DNA from: a virus
Length of the DNA: 62,820 nucleotides
Virus record (IMG/VR): IMGVR_UViG_3300035034_000349
Span: 1-62,820 of that record
Strand: one strand, 5' to 3'
Positions 3,885 through 34,337 of the stretch are shown here, piece by piece. A program made the position numbers and the translations under genes. The notes under the pieces were generated by a model that was not told the DNA's origin, ran no database searches, and saw only the letters and a program-made list of their open reading frames with translations. The first letter of the stretch is position 1; each line of letters starts with the position of its first letter.

Positions 3885-5992
3885 CACGCTTCACAAGACT
3901 TACAACCCTGTGTTTTTTGTCTGGCAAGTTGCTGTGATGCATTCATATTATACTGATAATACAATGTCTTAACACCTAATTGCCACGCCATAAGATACAA
4001 TTTGTTAATTTCTTTAGGATGCATATCAGGATCAATCATAATGTTTAAAGATTGTCCTTGATCTATGTGTGGTTGTCTAATCGCCGCCTGATTAATAATA
4101 GACTCTGGAGAAATTTCATATATAGTCTTAAATACATTTCTTTCATGCTCAGACAAGAATCCAATATGCTGAACCGAACCGTCTGCATCTCTAATAGAAT
4201 CCCAAGTATTTCTATTGTCTTGATTATATTTCTGTAAAACTTTCTTTAGATACTTATTCTTAACGGTTGTCTCACTCTTCGCAAGACTCTTTACATAATA
4301 GTTAGAAAACTCTGGTTCGATTCCCATAGAGACTTGTTCTAGGATCGCCGAAGAACTCTTTGTGGGGGCGACTGCCGTTAGTGTTGTATTTCGTCTCCCG
4401 TATCCTGCCAGCACCTCAGGCTCGCCCCACCATTCTGCCATATCGCGTGAAGCTGTCCATGCGCGTTCGTTAATAGTCTCAAACAATTCTTTATTAATGT
4501 CTGAAGCCTCTTCAGACTCAAACGCAATTGATTTAGACTGTAAATATGAGTGCCAGCCTAGTACACCCAAACCCAAGGCGCGGTGATTCTTCGCAAATTT
4601 TAGTACACGCTTCATAAAGTATTGGACTTCTGGAGTCATTTGTTCGACTTTATCAATAAACTCTGTAACAACCGTGTCAAGGAATATAGTCATAGTCTCT
4701 ACAGCGTCTGTATTTTTCCAATCATCGTAATACAAAGCATTCATAGACGATAAGACACATACAAAAGACTCGTCTTTGTTTGACGGTAAGGCAATCTCGG
4801 AACAATTATGCACCAGTATATTATTAGCGTAAAAGTTATGATTATCCTTAACAGTAATATCATAGACTGGTGTAGGCTGTACGCTAAGTTTTACTATTTT
4901 ATAAGCGCGTTGGAAACTTGAAGAGTCTGAAGAAAGGAGAGTATCGTCTAGTAACAATTCATCTGCACGAACATAGCCCCTATTTCCAGTGAATATTTTG
5001 TGGTTTCCAGTACACTCTAATAGTTTATCATAAGCACTATAAATCTGAAACAACTCTTCCACTACATCAGTTTTAGCTGAGACTTCAACCTCTTTCCATT
5101 CCGATTTTTCAGTCTCTGTATTATACGAAAGTGTGTAAATAGGCTGAGTAAATAATTGAAGATTGAAGAAAAGGTCGAATAAGTCAATATCCATTTCAAA
5201 CTCAGAGTCCAGATATTTCAACTTCAGTGTAGTGTCGCCTTTAACACACATATTCGATGCATAGATTTTCATATTCTTATTTTTATACACATCCACCGTA
5301 TTGTTATTTACATTGTCTGTGAAGAATACGTAAGGATACCCAGCCTCGGTGCGATTTTGAATAACCTTAGCCCATCTACGTCTATTCTCGGTATTACCAT
5401 CAATCATATCATTTAAGAATGTATCTGTAACTGTCACACCATTTGTTAGAGTCTGAATAGCATGTCCGTCACTACCAAAGCCTACAAATTCATCGAAGTC
5501 ACCGTGTTCAATAGGCAAATATGGTGTAAAGAATCCTCTACGAACTGAGCCTTGTGATACAATGTCTGTAAGCTTATCAAACAGTTCCATAAAATGCACA
5601 GCCCCAAAAGACTTTCCATAATCTTTGATATCCGCGCCGCGCTGTCTTAATTCTCCGATATAGCCTGAACAGCCCCCGCCAAACTTACTAAGCATACCAA
5701 CTTCTGAAACAGTATATAGAATAGAGTCCATAGAGTCTCCAATCCATGAACCAAAACAGGAAACAGGCAAGCCACGATCTGTAGCATAATTGGACCATAC
5801 GGGTGAAGATAATGAATACCAGCCTTTACTCATATAAGAATAAAACTTATCGGCAAAGCCTTTAATACCAGTTAAGACTTCGGCATGGTCTGCAATAATA
5901 CGAACCCTCTCTTCAACCGTCAAGCCATCGGGAAGATATCCCCTACTTAAAAATTGGCGAGTCTCTTCGTTAGCCCATTTGAACTTTGTCAT
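3884..5992 (-). CDS. nrdA: Ribonucleotide reductase class I large subunit, intein-containing
   Basis: A 702-residue precursor of the NrdA alpha chain, which makes dNDPs from NDPs. The extein (554 aa after intein removal) keeps C79, N247, the radical cysteine C397 followed by E399, C412, a YY pair near the end, and the C-terminal reducible pair C697/C700. A 148-residue mini-intein (249-396) sits immediately before the radical cysteine. The usual N-terminal ATP-cone of NrdA is missing; one is found instead on NrdB. The gene follows nrdB by 14 bases and ends in repeat copy A, a probable terminator. Confidence 0.95.
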   Translation of the reverse strand: MTKFKWANEETRQFLSRGYLPDGLTVEERVRIIADHAEVLTGIKGFADKFYSYMSKGWYSLSSPVWSNYATDRGLPVSCFGSWIGDSMDSILYTVSEVGMLSKFGGGCSGYIGELRQRGADIKDYGKSFGAVHFMELFDKLTDIVSQGSVRRGFFTPYLPIEHGDFDEFVGFGSDGHAIQTLTNGVTVTDTFLNDMIDGNTENRRRWAKVIQNRTEAGYPYVFFTDNVNNNTVDVYKNKNMKIYASNMCVKGDTTLKLKYLDSEFEMDIDLFDLFFNLQLFTQPIYTLSYNTETEKSEWKEVEVSAKTDVVEELFQIYSAYDKLLECTGNHKIFTGNRGYVRADELLLDDTLLSSDSSSFQRAYKIVKLSVQPTPVYDITVKDNHNFYANNILVHNCSEIALPSNKDESFVCVLSSMNALYYDDWKNTDAVETMTIFLDTVVTEFIDKVEQMTPEVQYFMKRVLKFAKNHRALGLGVLGWHSYLQSKSIAFESEEASDINKELFETINERAWTASRDMAEWWGEPEVLAGYGRRNTTLTAVAPTKSSSAILEQVSMGIEPEFSNYYVKSLAKSETTVKNKYLKKVLQKYNQDNRNTWDSIRDADGSVQHIGFLSEHERNVFKTIYEISPESIINQAAIRQPHIDQGQSLNIMIDPDMHPKEINKLYLMAWQLGVKTLYYQYNMNASQQLARQKTQGCKSCEA
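4805..5248 (-). mobile_element. NrdA mini-intein (148 aa)
   Basis: Block A starts CVKGDTTLK, block B holds GNHKIF, and the C-terminal block is VYDITVKDNHNFYA...LVHN followed by Cys. There is no room for a homing endonuclease domain. The insertion point splits the conserved N-x-C-x-E active-site motif, so no functional reductase exists before splicing. Confidence 0.92.
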
Positions 5993-6006
5993 GTAATTAT
6001 CTTTCT

Positions 6007-7257
6007 TTAAAATAAGTCGTCTTCTGTGATAGACTTTGATCTTTTTGTGTATGAGGTGTTTCTAGTATTGAAAAAGTCTGTATTCTTTGTTACAGAGATT
6101 TCATCGGTAAACCATTCTGTCTGTTCTATTAAAGACTCATCAAGTCCAAAAATAGCCTTGCAACCAATAGCAACCAAAGACTGGTTAAGCCTGAGTTTAA
6201 CGTATTCAAGTGTAACAGCTTTTGGTATGATTGTCAAGTCTCCTTTTTCATAAATCCACTCTACGACCTCTTTTTCTGCATCATATGCCTGATATGCAAT
6301 CTCTTTAATATAATCAACTAACTCATCATCAAACCAGTCGGGGTTCTCTCTTTTAATGATATTAACCAAATCAAAGCCGAACATTGCATGAATATTCTCT
6401 TCTTTACTCGTAGCAGATACGGCGTTGGCAATTCCCTTTAGTTTATTATCATGTTTCTTAAATGACATCATGATAATAAACTGACTGAAGAGTGACACAT
6501 TCTCTATGAACATTGAAAAGAGTATGATAGTCTCGAAGAAGTCTTTGTTATCCGTTGCTTTTGAGTTTTTATTTACTTTTTCAAGATACTTAATTCTCTT
6601 ATCAATACACGGAACATTCTTCAAGTCTGTGAAACGATCATTAAGTCCAAGCTTTTCCAGCAACTCTGAGTAAGCGTCTTTATGCCTAACTTCAGACTCT
6701 GCAAAAGTGTCGCCTACGTCTGTGATCTCAGGCTTAGGAAGCTTATCGCCAATTCTACCCCAGAATTTCTTTACAGCATTTTCAATCTGTGAAATGGCTA
6801 ACATAGAGCGTATTACAGCCTCACGTTCCTTTTCATTCATATGAACTTTAATGTCTTGAATATCTGAATCATAATTGAACTCTGTGTGAATCCAATAAGA
6901 ATGGCGAATCGCTGTGACATACTCCATTAATTCTGGGTATTCATAAGGCTTAATATTTGCGCGATATCTAAAAATATCTGGTTTATTTGCGTCCCTATAT
7001 GTAATATACTCACGCGCAATGTCATACAGTTTTGCATCCATAAGCGAATGTTCAACCAAAGTATGAATTTGATCTACATGCGGCTTGACAGTTTTCCAGT
7101 CTTTAAGCTTTCGTAAGACTCTATTCTTGATCTTTGTAGCAGTCTTTAAAGATTCTTCATCGTTGATATCAGAATCCATAGCCCTTAAAATTGCATACAC
7201 AATTTTATCAGGATTAAAGACCACTTCAGTATTATTTCTTTTAATTACATATTCCAA
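6007..7257 (-). CDS. nrdB: Ribonucleotide reductase small subunit with N-terminal ATP-cone
   Basis: Residues 1-88 are an ATP-cone (VIKRNNTEVVFNPDKI at the start, AREYITYRD at the end), the allosteric dATP/ATP switch normally found on NrdA. Residues ~100-416 are the ferritin-like radical subunit: E189-V-R-H192 with Y196 four residues on as the likely radical tyrosine, E252, and E287-N-I-H290 as iron ligands. NrdB-borne ATP-cones are a known but uncommon arrangement in which the beta chain oligomerises in response to dATP. The neighbours are nrdA and glutaredoxin, one operon. Confidence 0.93.
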   Translation of the reverse strand: MEYVIKRNNTEVVFNPDKIVYAILRAMDSDINDEESLKTATKIKNRVLRKLKDWKTVKPHVDQIHTLVEHSLMDAKLYDIAREYITYRDANKPDIFRYRANIKPYEYPELMEYVTAIRHSYWIHTEFNYDSDIQDIKVHMNEKEREAVIRSMLAISQIENAVKKFWGRIGDKLPKPEITDVGDTFAESEVRHKDAYSELLEKLGLNDRFTDLKNVPCIDKRIKYLEKVNKNSKATDNKDFFETIILFSMFIENVSLFSQFIIMMSFKKHDNKLKGIANAVSATSKEENIHAMFGFDLVNIIKRENPDWFDDELVDYIKEIAYQAYDAEKEVVEWIYEKGDLTIIPKAVTLEYVKLRLNQSLVAIGCKAIFGLDESLIEQTEWFTDEISVTKNTDFFNTRNTSYTKRSKSITEDDLF

Positions 7258-17390: not shown

Positions 17391-18273
17391 CCCCGTCTAT
17401 CTTCGTTCTATCTTTAGGATATTTAGTTTTTTTATCATTTACAAGATCATTCATATCTTCTATATTTCCTGCGCTACTCTTAATTCTATTAAACGTAGGC
17501 TCACACACAGAATCTTCAATAGATAGACCACCTGTAGGATCGTTATCTAATATAGCTTTAAATGGTACGCTTGGCCCCGGTTTATTAAAATGAACTTGCG
17601 AACCGTCTACATATACGACTCCAGCCGATTCTATAGATGTTCCACTCTTTGAAACAGTATTGAATGAGGCTTCGCATGACACATTATATACGCCTTTGGA
17701 ATAATGCACAAACTCTCCCTCATTTCTCAATACAAGATTTGCAAAAGACTGAATATTATGATTTCCTTTTGTGTAGTCTAGCTTTTCACCTTTTACACGA
17801 GTTGTCATATTACCATGTACGGTTAAGTCGTAATTCCCGCCAATTTTCTGTTTTACATCACCTTTTGTCAGAATATTGGCATTGCCTTGCACCGTTATAT
17901 TGAGATTGCCACCTACTGTCAGGACATTGTCTTCGAGTGATATATGAAAATCATCTCCAAAGACTTTAACAACCTTTGTTCCATCTTGGTGAATCTCGTA
18001 ATATGTACCAGACTTATGCATTTCCATAAGTCTTTCCGCACCCGGTGTGTCATCAACCTCTGTTACGTGTCCAGAAAGACTCTGAGTAACGCTATTGTAA
18101 GGATACGCCGTATGTGTAGGACTTGAAGGCTCTGTATAATTTAAATTATCATCGGCTGTAGAGATTACATCAAGTGTATTACTCTTAATTACATTTACAC
18201 GATTATTAGACCCTCCAAGACCAGTTGTAGGAGAATCGTGTATAATGTCAATATCTTTAGTGTACTTACTCAT
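17386..18273 (-). CDS. Baseplate central spike, gp5 C-terminal-type beta-helix
   Basis: 295 residues. The middle (~80-235) is a run of short beta repeats (HISLEDNVLTVGGNLNITV and similar), as in the triple-stranded beta-helix of T4 gp5C/VgrG-type spikes; MHKSGTYYEIHQDGTKVVK leads into it. In T4 this part is fused to gp5, whereas here it is a separate gene sharing its start with the end of the peptidase-bearing hub gene. It pierces the outer membrane at infection. The stop lies inside the small hairpin at the ncRNA 3' end. Confidence 0.75.
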   Translation of the reverse strand: MSKYTKDIDIIHDSPTTGLGGSNNRVNVIKSNTLDVISTADDNLNYTEPSSPTHTAYPYNSVTQSLSGHVTEVDDTPGAERLMEMHKSGTYYEIHQDGTKVVKVFGDDFHISLEDNVLTVGGNLNITVQGNANILTKGDVKQKIGGNYDLTVHGNMTTRVKGEKLDYTKGNHNIQSFANLVLRNEGEFVHYSKGVYNVSCEASFNTVSKSGTSIESAGVVYVDGSQVHFNKPGPSVPFKAILDNDPTGGLSIEDSVCEPTFNRIKSSAGNIEDMNDLVNDKKTKYPKDRTKIDGA

Positions 18274-19421
18274 TATTCTGGACCATCTTTCGCCCGTACG
18301 GGCATATCTGATTTTTTGAATGGCAATGGACTAATATCATATTGTTTATTTAATACAGTCTTTGTGAAAGATTGGTGTTGGTGTGCAAGTTGTGGAAACA
18401 CTCGGCCGGGGTTTATGGCATTTGGTGCAACGGGAAGGGCTGTTCCTGTACGAATCTCAAAATGAAGGTGTGTCAGACTATCCCAAACATGACTTCTACC
18501 GACTGTACCGATTTGTTGTCCTTTTGAGACTGTATCGCCTACGCCAACACTTATACCAGCTCCAGCCGCGTCTTTTGCCGCGTCTTGACTTACACCTAAA
18601 TGAGCATATATAGTGGTATATGTGCCTGTAGATAATTCGTGTGTAATTGCCACGGCATTACCGAACGATCTTCCTTTTGGTACACCGTTTGGTCCAAGCT
18701 TGTCATAATCACTTACTCTACCACCTTGTCCCCTATCTGCGCGGAATATACAAACCACTTTTCCTGCCGCCGCCGCATATACGGGAAGCCCTGCTGGTCC
18801 TTTTAAGACTCCATTAATATGTGACGCACCTTTATCAGTCTGTTTAAAGAATCCTGCTGGACATATATCAACTCCTAAATGTGTTCCGTTTCCGCGCGAC
18901 TCTCCAAAAGCACTTGAAACAAAGCCTGAAAATGGAACACACCATTCACTTTTATTGATATTAAGCATACGCGGATCAACGGGGTCTGTGTTAACATTAA
19001 CAGAGTCTGTTTCTTGTGGCGAGATATTATCGCCTTCTTTTTTAAAGATACTGAATACATTAGGAAACCAGTCTGTAGAACCGTTTTCGGTTGCGCGTGT
19101 AGACTCAGTCTGTGTTACACCACCAGCGACACCGATCATAATAGGAGATTGTCCAGATTCGCCATCTAAGAAAAAACCAAAGACTACCGAACCGGGCAAT
19201 AAGCCTGTAGGAGACTTTCCAACTCCAGCGACCCCAGCGTTTGTAATAGGAGTTATAGGATAAGCCCACGGCAAGGCATCTGTAGGCAACTCTTCAATAC
19301 TAGGATTGTGCCAACCATGTATTCTTACGCGACACCGACCAACTCCCATAGGATCGCCATTTGATTCGACTTCACCAAACCACCATATAAAACCATTCTT
19401 ACCCTGAAAGAGTCTATCCAT
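18273..19421 (-). CDS. 5: Baseplate hub gp5 with M23 peptidase domain
   Basis: The N-terminal ~110 residues form an OB-fold of the gp5/VgrG type (WWFGEVESNGDPMGVGRCRVR, LLPGSVVFGFFLDG). The C-terminal half is a zinc endopeptidase of family M23 (GTHLGVDI, AITHELSTGTYTTIYAHLG, THLHFEI). Where T4 gp5 carries a lysozyme, this phage has a peptide-cleaving domain. The start at 19421 (MDRLFQGKNGF) is preferred over the ATG at 19457, which lies inside the upstream gene. The spike gene follows immediately. Confidence 0.85.
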   Translation of the reverse strand: MDRLFQGKNGFIWWFGEVESNGDPMGVGRCRVRIHGWHNPSIEELPTDALPWAYPITPITNAGVAGVGKSPTGLLPGSVVFGFFLDGESGQSPIMIGVAGGVTQTESTRATENGSTDWFPNVFSIFKKEGDNISPQETDSVNVNTDPVDPRMLNINKSEWCVPFSGFVSSAFGESRGNGTHLGVDICPAGFFKQTDKGASHINGVLKGPAGLPVYAAAAGKVVCIFRADRGQGGRVSDYDKLGPNGVPKGRSFGNAVAITHELSTGTYTTIYAHLGVSQDAAKDAAGAGISVGVGDTVSKGQQIGTVGRSHVWDSLTHLHFEIRTGTALPVAPNAINPGRVFPQLAHQHQSFTKTVLNKQYDISPLPFKKSDMPVRAKDGPE

Positions 19422-20646
19422 TATTCGCCAACATTTTCTCATTAAATATAGACTCAACTCTATTCTTCAAGTCTTCTATATTCTTTTCGGATATATCATT
19501 ACCGACAATGACACTCTTTAAGAATAATTCACTATCTCTATATTCTTGTGTGATATTCTGATTAACCTTGATTTGTTCTCTAAGAATAAGACTCTTTTTA
19601 ATATTAACAAGATAATCAATCGAGTCTGTTTTCTTATTAATAACGCCTAAATCAACGATCATTCTATCGGCAACTTTATAAAAAGCCCTACTCATTGCCT
19701 GAACAGATTCGTTATATGAGTACACTTTAATACTTTTCACAGACTCCGATAGACTAGGCAATAATATATCAGTGTCTAATAAGTGTTTATCAATAATTAT
19801 ATTATACTCTTTTGTTACATAGTCTATCAAAGGTTGGTAGTCTGTATATGTCGATACATATTTGTAAAAGTCTAATTTAATATCTTGGACCACTTTATTT
19901 TTTTTATTGATACCGAGTGGATCGCTAGGTGATACAAGCGTGTCTATATTTAAAACAGTCTGTAGTGATTGTTTCTCATACTCTAAAAAAGAGCTTTTGG
20001 CATTCTCGCGCTGTTCAATACTCTTAAAGGCTTGTAAGGCATGATCTGCATACTGCCCAGCATTTACGATATTTCTAAGACCATTAGGTAGAATATTAAA
20101 GAGTGGTAAAGATAATATTGATCTTAGACCACTATTTTTTATAGACTCTAATAATGGCATATTCTCTTCCAGTACATAAAGCATATTTACAACATCCGAG
20201 AATGATATGTTAATTCCTGCAATCTGAACTTCAAGGTCTTTAAAGAATACCTGTTCTATCTGCGAGAATAAAAGACCATTCTGCACACTGTCTAAGATTG
20301 CGAGATTTGTGTTTAAGAGTGAGAAACCGTCTACAAACATTTGTTGTACGTTAGCAGGAATAAAATTATATACACCGATCATAGATAAATTGCCACTAAT
20401 TGTCGTAAACAGACTTTGTGCCGTTGCAACCTTGCCTAGAATGTTTTCAAGCTTGAATCTATTCTTCTCTCTACGATAGTTCGGATCGCCTTCAACTTGA
20501 ATATAATCAAGAATCTTACTCTCATTGACAAATTCAAGCCTTCGCGCTCGACTCATAAGAATATCAAGCCTACCTAAGTATGCTCCAGACTCATAAAGGC
20601 TGGAGTTTATTTGCGGGGCGTTATATATTTTATTAAATATTGACAT
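19414..20646 (-). CDS. Baseplate-associated protein of unknown type (410 aa)
   Basis: A largely helical protein with alternating hydrophobic and charged stretches and no recognised domain. It lies between the tail-tube-like gene and the gp5 gene and is coupled to both, so it is most likely a baseplate or tail component. The start MSIFNKIYNAPQ at 20646 follows the previous stop by 3 bases. Confidence 0.6.
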   Translation of the reverse strand: MSIFNKIYNAPQINSSLYESGAYLGRLDILMSRARRLEFVNESKILDYIQVEGDPNYRREKNRFKLENILGKVATAQSLFTTISGNLSMIGVYNFIPANVQQMFVDGFSLLNTNLAILDSVQNGLLFSQIEQVFFKDLEVQIAGINISFSDVVNMLYVLEENMPLLESIKNSGLRSILSLPLFNILPNGLRNIVNAGQYADHALQAFKSIEQRENAKSSFLEYEKQSLQTVLNIDTLVSPSDPLGINKKNKVVQDIKLDFYKYVSTYTDYQPLIDYVTKEYNIIIDKHLLDTDILLPSLSESVKSIKVYSYNESVQAMSRAFYKVADRMIVDLGVINKKTDSIDYLVNIKKSLILREQIKVNQNITQEYRDSELFLKSVIVGNDISEKNIEDLKNRVESIFNEKMLANNG

Positions 20647-23639: not shown

Positions 23640-25092
23640 TTCAACAAACCAAGTTTTAGGCTCTGTAACTCCCGTTATAGAGAATTTAGAGTTACTTACT
23701 CGCACTGGAGAAGAGATTAATCTTGTGCCACAATTACGCGAGCTTGTTATATATGAAGATATGTATTCACCAGTGCTTACAGGCTCAATTACGCTTGAAG
23801 ACAATATCCAACTCTTTGATAGACTTCCCATCATAGGCTTTGAAAGACTGCGCGTAAAGGTATATTCTTATAATTATTCATCTACTTTAAATGAAAAGGT
23901 AGACTTCTTACACCGCACGTTTGACATAATAAGCGTAACTGATATCACGCAAGTGAATGATTACACTAAACTTATAACACTTAATTTTGCTTCACCTGAA
24001 TTATTAAAAAACGATTCAACTAGACTCTCAAAGGGTCTTAGAAATTTATCAAATTCAAAAGCTGTGGAGTTAGTCTTGACTGAAGACTACGAATACGGCG
24101 AAGGCTTGGGGATACAGTCAAGTAAGATATATGACGGGTATTACAATAATTTTGTATCACCTTATATGTATAGTAGCTTTATCGAGTGTCGTTACGAGAT
24201 TACAAATGAAGATGATAGTTATGAATTATTCATTGAAAAGACAAAATACACAGAGCCTGTCATATCATTCCCGTATATGAAACCGTTTGATATCGTTTCA
24301 TGGCTTTCCGGCCGATCAATAAGAATGGCGCAAGGTGAAAAACCATCTACAAAATCGGCGGCATTCCTATTCTTTGAGAATAAGCGAGGGTTTAATTTCG
24401 TTTCTCTGGATACACTCTTAGAGGCTAAAGCATATAATACAACGGATTTTGTGTATGGTGATGCAAATCAAAACCTTACAAAAAATAGAAATACAAAGTC
24501 TGAGAGTATTATAAATTTACAGATTCAAGACGCATATAATACAGTTGAAAATATACGCAACGGCTTGTACGCTTCACGTATGTATTCATTTGACATATCG
24601 ACTGGACAAATGCGCGAACAAGACTATTCCTTTAAAGATAAGTTTCCAGAGTTTACCACTATGGAAAAGAATCCAACGCTACCATTAGAACAGACTTTAA
24701 CAGATAGACCACTTTCTCATAGGATTCTTACGTATAATACGGGGAATAGTGCCAATAATATTACAAGTTCGTCTACTGCAAGACTTCAACCATCTAATAA
24801 AGAGAATGGTCCAGAAGAATATATTCAAAATAGGCTGATGCAACTTGGTAAAATTGGTAATTATGTAATATCCTTTGAAGTTGCAGGAAATAGTAAACAT
24901 AAAGTAGGAGATTGCGTCAATATTGATATAAATACAACACAACCTACACCAGACAATTCATATAAGAGTGTTCCGAATCTATTTTATTCTGGATATTACT
25001 TATTAACTTCTATCAAACATAGCATCACACCCTCACAATACACAATGTATATTGAAGCTACAAAAGATAGTCATAACGAGGAAATAGTATAA
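23629..25092 (+). CDS. Baseplate hub protein (gp27-like)
   Basis: 487 residues, beta-rich, beginning with a conserved hub motif (ELVIYEDMYSPVLTGSITLED). It sits between gp53 and gp26, and its beginning resembles T4-like hub proteins annotated gp27 or hub/structural. gp27 forms the trimeric ring that carries gp5. Its stop overlaps the next ATG by one base (TAATG). Confidence 0.6.
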   Translation: MSDNSTNQVLGSVTPVIENLELLTRTGEEINLVPQLRELVIYEDMYSPVLTGSITLEDNIQLFDRLPIIGFERLRVKVYSYNYSSTLNEKVDFLHRTFDIISVTDITQVNDYTKLITLNFASPELLKNDSTRLSKGLRNLSNSKAVELVLTEDYEYGEGLGIQSSKIYDGYYNNFVSPYMYSSFIECRYEITNEDDSYELFIEKTKYTEPVISFPYMKPFDIVSWLSGRSIRMAQGEKPSTKSAAFLFFENKRGFNFVSLDTLLEAKAYNTTDFVYGDANQNLTKNRNTKSESIINLQIQDAYNTVENIRNGLYASRMYSFDISTGQMREQDYSFKDKFPEFTTMEKNPTLPLEQTLTDRPLSHRILTYNTGNSANNITSSSTARLQPSNKENGPEEYIQNRLMQLGKIGNYVISFEVAGNSKHKVGDCVNIDINTTQPTPDNSYKSVPNLFYSGYYLLTSIKHSITPSQYTMYIEATKDSHNEEIV

Positions 25093-25823
25093 TGAGCCTA
25101 CCAGTATTAGACTGTGTAAAGTATGAGACAGTTGTACCAAGCACAGGAAAGACTATAAAATATAGACCATTTCTTGTTAAAGAAGAGAAGGTCATCCTCA
25201 TAGCCCAGCAGGAAGACAGTATAAAGACTGCGCTACAGGCTGTAAAGGATATTATTGATAACTGTACGTTCAATGCACTGGATATTGACAGTCTTAAAAC
25301 GTATGACATTGAATATATTTTTCTTCAAATTAGAATGAAATCAAAAGGCGAGATAGTTCCTATGGCTTTTTCTTGTCAAAAAGAAAAAGAGAATGGCGAT
25401 TCGTGTAATAACATTATCAATATTGACCTTGACTTGAAAGAGGCTAAAGTAATTGGTAACAAAGACTTAGAAGCGCGAACTGTTATGCTAGACGAAGATA
25501 AGAAAATTGGTCTTGTTATGCTTGCACCAGACTTCTCATTGATTGAGTCTCTTCAAGAATACGCCACCAGTAAAGACAGTGATGTATTATATGAATTAGT
25601 GCCTAAGTTTGTCGAGTGTGTTTTTCAGAGTGAGACCATTTACGAGTTTACAGACGAAGAGTTTGCACAATGGTTAGAGTCTATGAGTCCAGAACAGTTT
25701 TCGAAGATCACTGAATACTTTGAAAACCTACCAAAACTATCTTTAACTCATAAAATATGTTGCGATCAGTGTAAACATGAAGAAGACGTTACCTTACAAG
25801 GTCTGAAAAGTTTTTTAACATAA
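25092..25823 (+). CDS. 26: Baseplate hub assembly protein gp26
   Basis: 243 residues with the gp26 opening (LPVLDCVKYETVVPSTGKTI, then YRPFLVKEEKVILIAQQ) and a zinc-ribbon-like C-terminus (CCDQC--EE). It acts in assembly of the central hub. It terminates at TAA 25821-25823, directly after a slippery heptamer T-TTT-TTA, and a fraction of ribosomes is predicted to shift -1 and add the gp51-like tail encoded to 25981. Confidence 0.85.
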   Translation: MSLPVLDCVKYETVVPSTGKTIKYRPFLVKEEKVILIAQQEDSIKTALQAVKDIIDNCTFNALDIDSLKTYDIEYIFLQIRMKSKGEIVPMAFSCQKEKENGDSCNNIINIDLDLKEAKVIGNKDLEARTVMLDEDKKIGLVMLAPDFSLIESLQEYATSKDSDVLYELVPKFVECVFQSETIYEFTDEEFAQWLESMSPEQFSKITEYFENLPKLSLTHKICCDQCKHEEDVTLQGLKSFLT

Positions 25824-25843
25824 CGGTTGGAGGAGAATCGTTA
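25811..25843 (+). promoter_or_regulatory. Programmed -1 frameshift signal
   Basis: The heptamer T TTT TTA (25811-25817) is in exact gp26 phase (AGT TTT TTA). After 3 bases comes an 8-bp stem: TAACGGTT (25821-25828) with AATCGTTA (25836-25843), one G-T wobble, loop GGAGGAG. A -1 shift continues in an open frame for 54 residues. Confidence 0.8.
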
Positions 25844-25981
25844 ATACTTTATTATAACATTAACTCTACACTGATGTTACATTATAAGTATTCCTTAGCA
25901 GAACTGGAAAATATGATACCTTGGGAGCGCGAAGTCTACGTTGGACTCTTCGAGCAGTATATCACAGAACAAAATGAATAA
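25817..25981 (+). CDS. 51: gp51-like C-terminal extension reached by -1 frameshift
   Basis: In the -1 frame the ribosome reads 54 residues ending in LAELENMIPWEREVYVGLF, a stretch typical of gp51-type hub assembly proteins of T4-like marine phages. The full fusion would be 296 residues (gp26 1-242 plus 54). Independent initiation is possible only at ATG 25874, giving 35 residues with no ribosome site; the GGAGGAG upstream has no start codon at usable distance. This parallels the G/GT tail-chaperone frameshift of other phages. Confidence 0.75.
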   Translation, partial: NITVGGESLILYYNINSTLMLHYKYSLAELENMIPWEREVYVGLFEQYITEQNE

Positions 25982-30629: not shown

Positions 30630-30883
30630 AGTAAAGACCATTCGTTAAGATTAAGAAGCGTAGTCAATGGTGCGATACAAACACAGTCTTGAACCGTTAA
30701 GTCTTCGTAAGTGTCTGTATATGAATCATGCATCTCAGAGTCTGTATCCCATAATACCAGCATGTCATAAGACTCTAATATATGTGTGACTATACCGCAA
30801 CGCATAGTTTCTAAGTGTAGTAACTCTTTGCCGACTATGGCTTGGTGTAATTCTTCTATGGTATAGTCTGTAGGATACATCAT
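30626..30883 (-). CDS. Hypothetical protein (85 aa)
   Basis: Acidic small protein (MMYPTDYTIEELHQAIVGK) without recognised motif. It is coupled by overlaps to gp41 before it and the phosphoesterase after it, so it belongs to the replication operon. Confidence 0.55.
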   Translation of the reverse strand: MMYPTDYTIEELHQAIVGKELLHLETMRCGIVTHILESYDMLVLWDTDSEMHDSYTDTYEDLTVQDCVCIAPLTTLLNLNEWSLL

Positions 30884-32628
30884 ACTTTAATTCCTGTAAA
30901 CTTATTCTTTGTAGTGTTTTTCACACTTGGAATAGTTGTAGTTGAACCGCCATTTGTATAGGAGGTACTTACTATATCATAGAACTTCATTTTAGGTCTG
31001 TCAACACCTACTGCAAATTTTGTATCTTTAAACACGTCTGAGTAACGGTTTTTCAACTGTTTAATTAAGACTTGATTAGCCTTCGCCAACTCTTCGTTTG
31101 ATATTAGACCAAAAAAGAAATCGAATGTCATTGGACCACCAAAAGAGTCTGAGGTACTGGCAATATCAATATCGCTATTATCCGCGCCCGAGTTGTGTGT
31201 TAATATTCCATTGGCGTAGAAAAGTCTATCACCATCCAACTCAATGTCTATAGTCTCAATTTCTCCCATTTCTATAATATCTACAATTTCGTCTGTAGAG
31301 TCCTCTTTTATGAAAAGTGTGTCTCCTATGGATAGACCCTGTTTTAAAGACTGTATATTATCTAAAGTGTTTACAGGGAATAGGTGATTATCGGAGCATA
31401 CAATTTCTTTTCCTGATTTAGTAATTATTTTATATACTTTGGTCTTCGAGTTTTTGTAAGTGTCTTTAACAGTATTAAATTTGTTGTCTTTAGATAATAC
31501 ACAATCACCTTCTACAAGATGTTTAATTGCTATAATACCCTTTACTTTTTCGTGAACCAGTGTATCTGGAGAAAGACATCTATTCGTTTGAGTCGCTGTC
31601 CAAAGCACGACATTATTCTTCACTGCAAATCCGCGCAACTCTTCACAGATTGATTTTACATAACCATATGAGTTTGAATTGTCTTTAAACCTGTCACTAG
31701 CCGCAATATTCAAATAGTCTACAATGACAACATCAGGCACAAATCCGTTAAGCGTCTTATATTCTTTAAGCAGATAATCAAAAGCCAATGCCCCTGCCCC
31801 AGACGTAGGATATTCTTTAACCTTCAGCCTGCCTTGAAGACTCTCTAAAGCCTTCGTTTTAAGTCCCCACTTTTTAGCTGTAATTCCCTTAAACTCATCC
31901 ATATTAATGTCCATAAGATTTGCATCAATTCTTTGAGCAATCTTTTTCTCAGCCATTTCAAGTGTTATGTATAGTACATTTAACCCTCTTTTAAGATAAT
32001 TTGCCGCAAGATCACATAAGAACATACTTTTACCTACACCTGTAGACGCAAGAATACAGTTCACCGTCTTAGGTTCTACACCACCACCAGTAATACGATT
32101 AAGCATATCCAAATGACACGGTATCTTATGCGCCTGTTCGTTATAATACTCAAAGCGTTCGGCAATGTCTTCAAGATAGTCGTGTCCGATATTCGTATTG
32201 AATGAGACTCCTAAAGCCTCGGCAAGAATGTTAGGAATAGACGTTTTTGAAATTTTGCCCGTATGGTCCGTAGAGATTTTGATAGTCTCTGTAATAGCTA
32301 AGTCTAAAGCCCTATCTTTACAAAACTCTTCAGTCTGATCTATAATCCATTGTAGAGACTCTTTGGAGTGTTTCTTACTGTCTATAAGCTTTGCGCGTTT
32401 AAGAAGTCTTGTGTGTGTTGTTTCATTTACGGCAAGATTTTCTATATAGACTTTAACAGTGTCGTATGATGGTTGTTCACCATACGTATTTAAATGATTC
32501 TTCAGTATATTGAAATACTCTTTCGTATCAAATTCTGTAAAGTAAGACTCTTTAAGGTGTGGTAGAACAGCCTGAACATAATCTTTACTATACTGTAGAT
32601 TTTTCAGAATTGCTGTTTCTAATTTCAT
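30880..32628 (-). CDS. 41: Replicative DNA helicase gp41 (DnaB family), intein-containing
   Basis: A 582-residue precursor with 453 extein residues. The RecA-like motor has Walker A ASTGVGKS (194-201), Walker B VVIVDY (300-305) and the strand WTATQTNR (343-350). A 129-residue mini-intein (351-479) splits this last motif from the following SGADNSDIDIASTSDS. gp41 unwinds the fork 5'-3' with gp61 primase and the gp59 loader. It lies in an operon after UvsX and the 112-aa gene, with small overlaps. Confidence 0.93.
   Translation of the reverse strand: MKLETAILKNLQYSKDYVQAVLPHLKESYFTEFDTKEYFNILKNHLNTYGEQPSYDTVKVYIENLAVNETTHTRLLKRAKLIDSKKHSKESLQWIIDQTEEFCKDRALDLAITETIKISTDHTGKISKTSIPNILAEALGVSFNTNIGHDYLEDIAERFEYYNEQAHKIPCHLDMLNRITGGGVEPKTVNCILASTGVGKSMFLCDLAANYLKRGLNVLYITLEMAEKKIAQRIDANLMDINMDEFKGITAKKWGLKTKALESLQGRLKVKEYPTSGAGALAFDYLLKEYKTLNGFVPDVVIVDYLNIAASDRFKDNSNSYGYVKSICEELRGFAVKNNVVLWTATQTNRCLSPDTLVHEKVKGIIAIKHLVEGDCVLSKDNKFNTVKDTYKNSKTKVYKIITKSGKEIVCSDNHLFPVNTLDNIQSLKQGLSIGDTLFIKEDSTDEIVDIIEMGEIETIDIELDGDRLFYANGILTHNSGADNSDIDIASTSDSFGGPMTFDFFFGLISNEELAKANQVLIKQLKNRYSDVFKDTKFAVGVDRPKMKFYDIVSTSYTNGGSTTTIPSVKNTTKNKFTGIKV
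31192..31578 (-). mobile_element. gp41 mini-intein (129 aa)
   Basis: Starts CLSPDTLVHE, has block B CSDNHLF, and ends DGDRLFYANGILTHN before a serine. No endonuclease domain. The insertion is in the DnaB-family motif QTNR/S, so unspliced protein cannot be an active helicase. Confidence 0.92.
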
Positions 32629-32926
32629 CGTATGCTCTTTCTAAGGATGTTTCGAGTATATCATAAAAAACACCTGTAAGGGTATCATTCAAAGCTGGCA
32701 TACAGGTATTTAAGTATGCATCTGAAATATTCTTAGGTATTCCTTGAATGACTGTTTCAAACCCTGCTTGACCATCATCAGCGATATTAATCTTGTGTAT
32801 AGTCAAAATCCAGTCTTTAAAAGGGTCTTCCGTCAATCGAAGGTCTATAAAGTCTGGAGACGTATCTTTTCTATCCTTAATAACCAAAGGATTCACTACG
32901 GTATATGCTTTATTCCTCTTCATCAC
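32588..32926 (-). CDS. Hypothetical protein between uvsX and gp41 (112 aa)
   Basis: Starts MMKRNKAYTVVNPLVIKD; a beta-rich first half and a helical end. It overlaps uvsX by 17 bases and gp41 by 41. A small gene in this position is seen in related phages, but I know no function for it. Confidence 0.6.
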   Translation of the reverse strand: MMKRNKAYTVVNPLVIKDRKDTSPDFIDLRLTEDPFKDWILTIHKINIADDGQAGFETVIQGIPKNISDAYLNTCMPALNDTLTGVFYDILETSLERAYDEIRNSNSEKSTV

Positions 32927-34337
32927 TTGATACCTTTCCTGTAGACTCTGAGCCTAGTTTATACTTATTCTCTATATATGCGACAAACTCTTTATTGTTG
33001 AGCAAGTCTTCAAGCCAGATATCTGTGTCTTTTTTACGAACCTTTGAGTCTGGACTAGCGGGTAAGGCGTACCAACCGTTTGTAGGTGAAATAATATGTT
33101 TAGATTCTAAGGCAAGATCAAGCAAGCCTGAATACTTATCAATACCAGAGTCGAATAAGACTTTAAGACCAATGCGAGCCTTTTCTTTTACGAAGCGAGA
33201 CTTCTCCACATTTAAGTTAAAGGTAAAGCCTTTTAATTCTTTGCCCTCTTTTTCCATAGCCTTTGTGATAATAATGGCAGTATTCGCCGCGAACATAAGC
33301 CCAGTATTATGGTGATTAATACCATTAACATCTCTATATGAGTTGTTATTTTCAACGGTCAAATCATATACATCTTCTTTATCAATTTTTTTAATATTTT
33401 TAATTTTCAAATCAGCGAGAATATCTTCATTATTATAATCTGTCACGCCAACCCACTTATTATCAGTTGTTAATAGTTTATGATTAGCCGAACATTTAAA
33501 CTTTACGCCATTTTCCATCTCAACTTCGTATAGATCGGGCTTAGGCTCTAATAGTGTATGTTTGTTCCATGTATGCGTCACTAACTGGTACGTACCATCG
33601 TGAGTCATAACTTTATCGCCTACGACAATATTTTCTATACTACATGCGCCGCCTTCAGTTAATACCTTATGTCCAGCGGTAAGGCACCCGCCTCCAATAA
33701 TAGTCTTTGGAAACAATCCAATTTCTTGATAAGTGTGGGCAATGCCGACACACGGAATATCTTTAATGGTGAGTTTCGCTGTAATGATTCTGAATAGAGA
33801 CTTCAAAGCCTTTGCGCGAGTCATATCGCCTACAGTTTTACCGTCTAAAGCGTCTTGTGCTTCTTTATCAGACCCCATATTACCAAAAGAGTCTACAAAG
33901 ATTATGACTTTATCACCTTTTACCAATTCTTCAAGTTTCTGAGCAATGTCAATTTTCATCTTCTCTACAGACTCTACTGGAATGTGTACGACTCGTGAAA
34001 CATCAACACCCTGCGCTTTCATATACTCTTCAGTGATACCAAATTCAGTGTCATAAAAAAGACAAACACCATCTTTATGTTTATTGAGATATGCCGATAC
34101 GACTGCCAAGCCTAGTAGAGACTTAAAGTGTCGTGATGGACCAGCAATTACGGTAAAGCCCGGTGATAATCCACGATTAGGAGAACCTGAAAGAATGATA
34201 TTCATTGCTGGGTATGCTGTTTTAACAAAAGAATCGTCTGTAAGATTGAAAAACTCTGACTTAGAGACTAAAGAAGAGCCTTTGCCTTTGAGTAATTTTT
34301 TCAATAGGGGATTAGATACGGAAGTTGTTCCCGACAT
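32910..34337 (-). CDS. uvsX: UvsX RecA-like recombinase, intein-containing
   Basis: A 475-residue precursor, 348 after splicing. The ATPase core has Walker A GPSRHFKS (66-73), the glutamate stretch LFYDTEFG, and Walker B VIIFVDS. A 127-residue mini-intein (218-344) sits in the DNA-binding loop region between IIGGG and TGLMFAAN. UvsX does strand exchange in recombination-dependent replication and repair. It heads the operon uvsX-gp41 with its own promoter at 34370-34398. Confidence 0.93.
   Translation of the reverse strand: MSGTTSVSNPLLKKLLKGKGSSLVSKSEFFNLTDDSFVKTAYPAMNIILSGSPNRGLSPGFTVIAGPSRHFKSLLGLAVVSAYLNKHKDGVCLFYDTEFGITEEYMKAQGVDVSRVVHIPVESVEKMKIDIAQKLEELVKGDKVIIFVDSFGNMGSDKEAQDALDGKTVGDMTRAKALKSLFRIITAKLTIKDIPCVGIAHTYQEIGLFPKTIIGGGCLTAGHKVLTEGGACSIENIVVGDKVMTHDGTYQLVTHTWNKHTLLEPKPDLYEVEMENGVKFKCSANHKLLTTDNKWVGVTDYNNEDILADLKIKNIKKIDKEDVYDLTVENNNSYRDVNGINHHNTGLMFAANTAIIITKAMEKEGKELKGFTFNLNVEKSRFVKEKARIGLKVLFDSGIDKYSGLLDLALESKHIISPTNGWYALPASPDSKVRKKDTDIWLEDLLNNKEFVAYIENKYKLGSESTGKVSSDEEE
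33306..33686 (-). mobile_element. UvsX mini-intein (127 aa)
   Basis: Begins CLTAGHKVLTEGG, block B CSANHKLLT, ends VYDLTVENNNSYRDV...INHHN before Thr. No endonuclease domain. It disrupts the second DNA-binding loop of the recombinase. Confidence 0.92.

Follow-up and report, generated by a model that had tools for sequence, protein, structure and literature searches.

The 62,820-nt stretch of viral DNA analysed here (the window) in all likelihood specifies two forms of a T4-type tail assembly chaperone that would share one start, the longer of them arising through a -1 slip on U UUU UUA. At the junction between gp26 and a gp51-type tail, an X XXY YYZ heptamer in phase is combined with an overlapping open -1 frame, the pattern of -1 programmed ribosomal frameshifting, and comparison of junction sequences makes a genuine, functional frameshift very probable. 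By the logic of lambda G/GT, the fusion product would most likely be the chaperone's long form.

The gp26 junction in the window

The window is a 62.8-kb virus fragment from IMG/VR that encodes a T4-like DNA polymerase, clamp, clamp loader, gp4 and gp2, and its source is a marine-type T4-like phage. Elsewhere in it, a DnaB-like (gp41-type) helicase (30880-32628, minus strand) is split by what appears to be a mini-intein of some 128 residues (CLSPDT...FYANGILTHN/S) in which an endonuclease domain was not seen, and the RecA core of a UvsX-like recombinase (32910-34337, minus strand) is interrupted from about residue 218 by a Hint/intein-splicing domain. The product of 18273-19457 (minus strand) carries a gp5-type OB domain with an M23 peptidase in place of the T4 lysozyme domain, and the ribonucleotide reductase genes of Staphylococcus phages share about 65% DNA identity with positions 3929-6951.

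Table 1. Features of the gp26/gp51-type locus and of the two genes downstream (window coordinates).
Feature	Position	Strand	Basis
gp26, predicted short form (TAC-N), 243 aa	25092..25823	+	PF12322, phrog_150, AlphaFold model
Slippery heptamer T TTT TTA, in gp26 phase	25811..25817	+	read directly; T TTT TTN equivalent in 93/94 loci
-1 frame tail (TAC-C, gp51 type), 54 aa past the predicted slip, then TAA	25817..25981	+	phrog_634, C-terminal end of phrog_150
Candidate stimulatory hairpin, 8-bp stem (one G-U), 7-nt loop GGAGGAG	25821..25843	+	begins 3 nt past the heptamer
Small probable membrane protein, 114 aa	25990..26334	+	phrog_14936 (unknown function), 4e-17; membrane character by eye
Candidate tape measure protein, 542 aa	26334..27962	+	phrog_167, BLASTP, position

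The gp26 protein matches the Pfam family PF12322 (T4_baseplate) over its full length (1.3e-50) and the PHROG family phrog_150 (5.5e-53). Its gene ends in the codons CTG AAA AGT TTT TTA ACA TAA, with the stop at 25821-25823, and the open stretch of the -1 frame spans 25781 to 25981. Translated from the slip, the tail reads NITVGGESLILYYNINSTLMLHYKYSLAELENMIPWEREVYVGLFEQYITEQNE (54 aa), which includes the motif ENMIPWERE and matches phrog_634, annotated as 'baseplate hub assembly catalyst' (4.6e-17), as well as the C-terminal end of phrog_150 (8.4e-5), where both parts occur together in the longer members of the family. The first-pass annotation, made from the sequence of the window, had placed the heptamer in phase and a 54-residue open -1 frame here, correctly to the base. 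In line with its further claim that the tail lacks a plausible start of its own, the earliest ATG, GTG or TTG in the tail frame is the ATG at 25874, within the conserved tail.

In the mechanism that we propose, the majority of ribosomes would terminate at TAA 25821 and release gp26 as the short form. A minority would slip by -1 at U UUU UUA, with the tRNAs in the P and A sites moving their pairing from UUU UUA to UUU UUU, and would restart decoding at AAC 25817 to give a long form with the gp51-type tail, predicted at 242 + 54 = 296 residues. A downstream hairpin probably increases slippage.

Conservation of the junction across 94 loci

The junction was compared in 94 loci, comprising 80 from IMG/VR, 13 from annotated phages and the window itself. 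The IMG/VR loci were gathered by the tail alone and hence without selection for any frameshift signal; a wide alignment (A1) proved too divergent to be searched for patterns, and an alignment of the tail (A2) was used in its place. All 94 loci place the tail in -1 relative to gp26, with no case of an in-frame fusion or of +1, and in each the -1 frame reads as an open, protein-like sequence. An in-phase T TTT TTN occurs directly ahead of the gp26 stop in 93 of the 94, mostly as TTTTTTC, with TTTTTTT in 11 loci, TTTTTTA in 9 (window included) and TTTTTTG in 1. The distance from the end of the heptamer to the stop is 3 nt in nearly all loci, and 0 or 6 nt in three. An alignment of junctions in related phages for T-TTT-TTA or equivalents had been proposed in the first-pass annotation, and it gives the claim of a -1 fusion of gp26 to a gp51-type tail strong comparative support. 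The sole tail locus lacking the heptamer (L074) was considered as a real exception and rejected: its gp26 is about 35 residues short and jumps to the gene end, which is a deletion or an assembly error.

The codons that form the heptamer are far more uniform than their background. Every one of 88 distinct junctions uses TTT as its first Phe codon (75% background; nominal P 1.4e-11) and has T as the last base of the preceding codon (68% background in Ser, Asp, Asn and Ala codons; nominal P 1.1e-15), although both P values overstate the case because the sequences are related and not independent. The second slip codon encodes Phe in 78 junctions and Leu in 10 with the T run kept throughout, and this retention of the T run while the amino acid alternates is the pattern expected from selection on the nucleotides. 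Judged on these sequence comparisons, the heptamer as a set across loci is far beyond chance. Furthermore, a -1 frame stop lies directly upstream of the heptamer in 6 loci, which would pin the shift within the heptamer itself.

The tail is conserved over considerable divergence. It is 49-64% identical between the window and aligned IMG/VR relatives, and the best gp26 identity to the window among the IMG/VR loci compared is only 39%; a single-protein search of IMG/VR found no close relative of the window gp26, and the gp27-like neighbour, used as a query for close relatives, returned only 25%-identical loci. Among named phages, the heptamer is present in Vibrio phage nt-1 and in Aeromonas phages 65, CC2 and Ahp1, and Mendera, beside several Aeromonas phages, is a further example supporting the -1 junction. 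The cyanophages (Kyanoviridae) P-SSM2, S-PM2 and S-SSM7 have the same gp26/gp51 junction with T TTT TTC, differing from the window in the seventh heptamer base and in having gp51 annotated as a second gene.

The cyanophage records bear on the first of three alternatives, namely that the tail is a separate small gene, with the loop GGAGGAG acting as ribosome-binding site and translation restarting at AUA 25844 or ATG 25874. GGAGGAG (25829-25835) would serve well as a Shine-Dalgarno sequence, lying about 8 nt upstream of AUA 25844, but AUA is a very poor start codon, a start at ATG 25874 would omit conserved tail residues, and GGAGGAG is not seen at the equivalent place in the relatives listed. 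About a third of the junctions (28/88) offer no ATG, GTG or TTG in the tail frame upstream of its residue 16, while the heptamer is conserved at the nucleotide level. Vibrio phages D528 (L012, 3199-3399) and K452 (L099, near 2223) do lend some support to a separate gene: the heptamer is absent at the end of their gp26, whose stop shares bases with an ATG in the tail frame (TAATG), and in these two phages the tail may be made as a separate chain. For the window, taken together, we regard a separate gene as very improbable.

Hairpins downstream of the heptamer

The arms of the window stem are TAACGGTT (25821-25828) and AATCGTTA (25836-25843), and its loop is the strong Shine-Dalgarno-like sequence described above. 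The hairpin has a minimum free energy of -6.4 kcal/mol (z -3.25 against dinucleotide shuffles), but 4.1% of 30-nt stretches of the window fold equally well, so that on its own it is weak evidence. The 8-bp pairing and the GGAGGAG loop reported in the first-pass annotation are thereby present, with the weight they can carry reduced. Searching for exact copies of the window's heptamer and stem together returned no match.

When the 88 loci are folded in 40-nt windows, the predicted structure is strongest exactly past the heptamer, at a mean of -9.2 kcal/mol compared with -4.2 kcal/mol over all offsets. An 11-bp stem is common to 44 loci (alignment A4; for example L001, L019 and L023), which were picked by their 5' arm only, ATGG or ATGT; 89.8% of its cells are paired, and its covariation exceeds that of all 500 shuffles and of every slid control. 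Marine relatives other than the window are thus the loci in which covariation supports a downstream structure. One of its pairs is seen as U-A, A-U and G-C, with the 5' side at a third codon position and the 3' side at a second, so that maintaining the pairing alters a tail residue (Glu/Val/Ala). Many cyanophages have a stronger, covarying hairpin, starting from about 5-6 nt past the heptamer, unlike the window. The remaining 44 loci, the window included, lack the A4 stem, and some of them carry unrelated strong hairpins (L039, L048, L071). The window hairpin is not homologous to the hairpin of the relatives. A strong hairpin is missing from about half of them, which suggests that one may not be needed.

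The covarying stem also bears on a second alternative, in which RNA polymerase slips on the six T and adds a U, so that part of the mRNA joins the -1 frame and the ribosome reads it unshifted. A run of T6-T7 is present in all loci but one, which is in its favour, but a covarying RNA hairpin right past the site in many relatives implicates the ribosome, and the six-T runs, whether followed by C, A or G, are held in exact codon phase. Six T is moreover a short run for bacterial transcriptional slippage, and polymerase slippage appears marginally less probable still than a separate tail gene. That gp26 is the sole product and the -1 frame a decaying remnant of gene 51 has a negligible chance of being right: 94/94 loci retain an open, protein-like -1 frame, and in the aligned IMG/VR relatives the tail keeps its 49-64% identity to the window.

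With ribosomal frameshifting retained as the preferred reading, a broader scenario can be put forward tentatively, as possible though doubtful. The T4-like gp26/gp51 junction may carry an evolving frameshift stimulator, in which the marine stem is kept by compensating, residue-changing pairs, the Vibrio group has lost the heptamer and perhaps makes its tail separately via TAATG, and the stimulator of the window arose independently with a Shine-Dalgarno-like loop.

Relation to known tail assembly chaperones

T4 carries both forms as genes. Its gp26 (208 aa) matches PF12322 (8.8e-64) and has no tail, and its gp51 (249 aa) matches PF12322 (3.9e-52) and carries a phrog_634-type tail, the same C-terminal domain as the window tail; these are the same two forms, present as separate genes. 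Genes 26 and 51 lie on opposite strands in T4, and likewise in Aeromonas phage Aes508, so that in these phages, in contrast to the window, the two forms come from two complete, oppositely oriented genes without a frameshift. A gp51 with a separate start had been named in the first-pass annotation as grounds for abandoning the fusion; such a gp51 does exist in T4 and Aes508, but there it is a complete, separate long form, which is compatible with the fusion reading.

The fold of gp26 was modelled with AlphaFold from 46 sequences (pLDDT 92). The top VIA-align match of the model, first of 779 chains, is the HK97 tail assembly chaperone 2ob9 (Z 7.6, in the tool's middling range and below its safe level; rmsd 4.2; 83/107 residues; model residues 1-85), followed by 5ir0, a protein of a Vibrio cholerae PICI-like element (Z 5.3). 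Foldseek gave no significant match to the window gp26, with 2ob9 at E 2.1, and no solved structure matching gp26 by sequence was found. The resemblance of the predicted fold to the HK97 chaperone is suggestive.

In lambda, gpG and gpGT share one start, the short form being accompanied by a rare -1 frameshifted long form, and both act on the tape measure protein (PMC5009743). The likeness to the window lies in the two forms predicted there from one start by a -1 shift. Lambda differs in its slip site, the window belongs to a contractile-tailed T4-like phage, and the window gp26 is larger, with only its first 85 residues resembling the HK97 chaperone. In E. coli, U UUU UUA shifts less well than A AAA AAG, which weighs against the frameshift reading, but the lambda short:long ratio is about 30:1, so that the shift rate wanted is low (PMC5009743). 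In a review of how the T4 tail is assembled, gp26 and gp51 are given as chaperones of hub assembly (PMC3004832). The first-pass annotation had combined the lambda logic with hub assembly. The lambda logic is retained, but the proteins are probably a tape-measure chaperone pair rather than a hub variant, because T4 gp51 consists of a gp26-family part plus the tail and the predicted gp26 fold best matches the HK97 chaperone. By the same analogy with gpG/gpGT, the gp26 part would coat the tape measure protein, whose gene probably lies close downstream, and the gp51-type tail would recruit tube subunits.

Neighbouring genes are likewise of T4 type. Around gp26 are genes for a gp48-like tube cap, gp53 and a gp27-like tail protein, and after the tail come a small membrane-like protein, unlikely to form part of the frameshift signal, and then the candidate tape measure gene, separated from the tail by that one small gene. 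The candidate tape measure protein matches phrog_167 (tail length tape measure) weakly (0.0039) and, by BLASTP (7e-4), a co-located phiM12 gene annotated as similar to tape measure proteins. It would be the client of the chaperones.

The 2022 study of Vladimirov and co-workers is said to name genes 26 and 51 and to describe frameshifting in several T4-like groups. The tail assembly chaperone genes of T4-like phages were identified in that study (Vladimirov, Gautam & Davidson 2022, Virology 566:9-15), as relayed by two later papers (PMC12846349, PMC10885494). The Pseudomonas phage Adele paper credits it with poly-T frameshift signals within the TAC-N genes of T4-like phages (PMC12846349), and the PRFect paper with T4-like phages that have separate short and long genes (PMC10885494). 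On these accounts, the two-form concept for T4-like chaperones is already published, and the first-pass annotation was mistaken in knowing of no description for gp26/gp51. The window shares with the system so credited a predicted short and long form and a poly-T signal, and is a further instance with T TTT TTA and a GGAGGAG-loop hairpin. In the TAC-N/TAC-NC terms used for T4-like phages, it has a gp26-family N-terminal protein, a joined gp51-type segment and a conserved in-phase heptamer.

The value of the present analysis lies mainly in this confirmation, together with the covarying hairpin and the Vibrio exception. It would mend the annotation of gp51 in many T4-like marine phages, where it now stands as a separate 'baseplate hub assembly catalyst' or is unannotated, and it supports viewing the T4 proteins gp26 and gp51 as one tape-measure chaperone whose short and long forms have been split between two genes.
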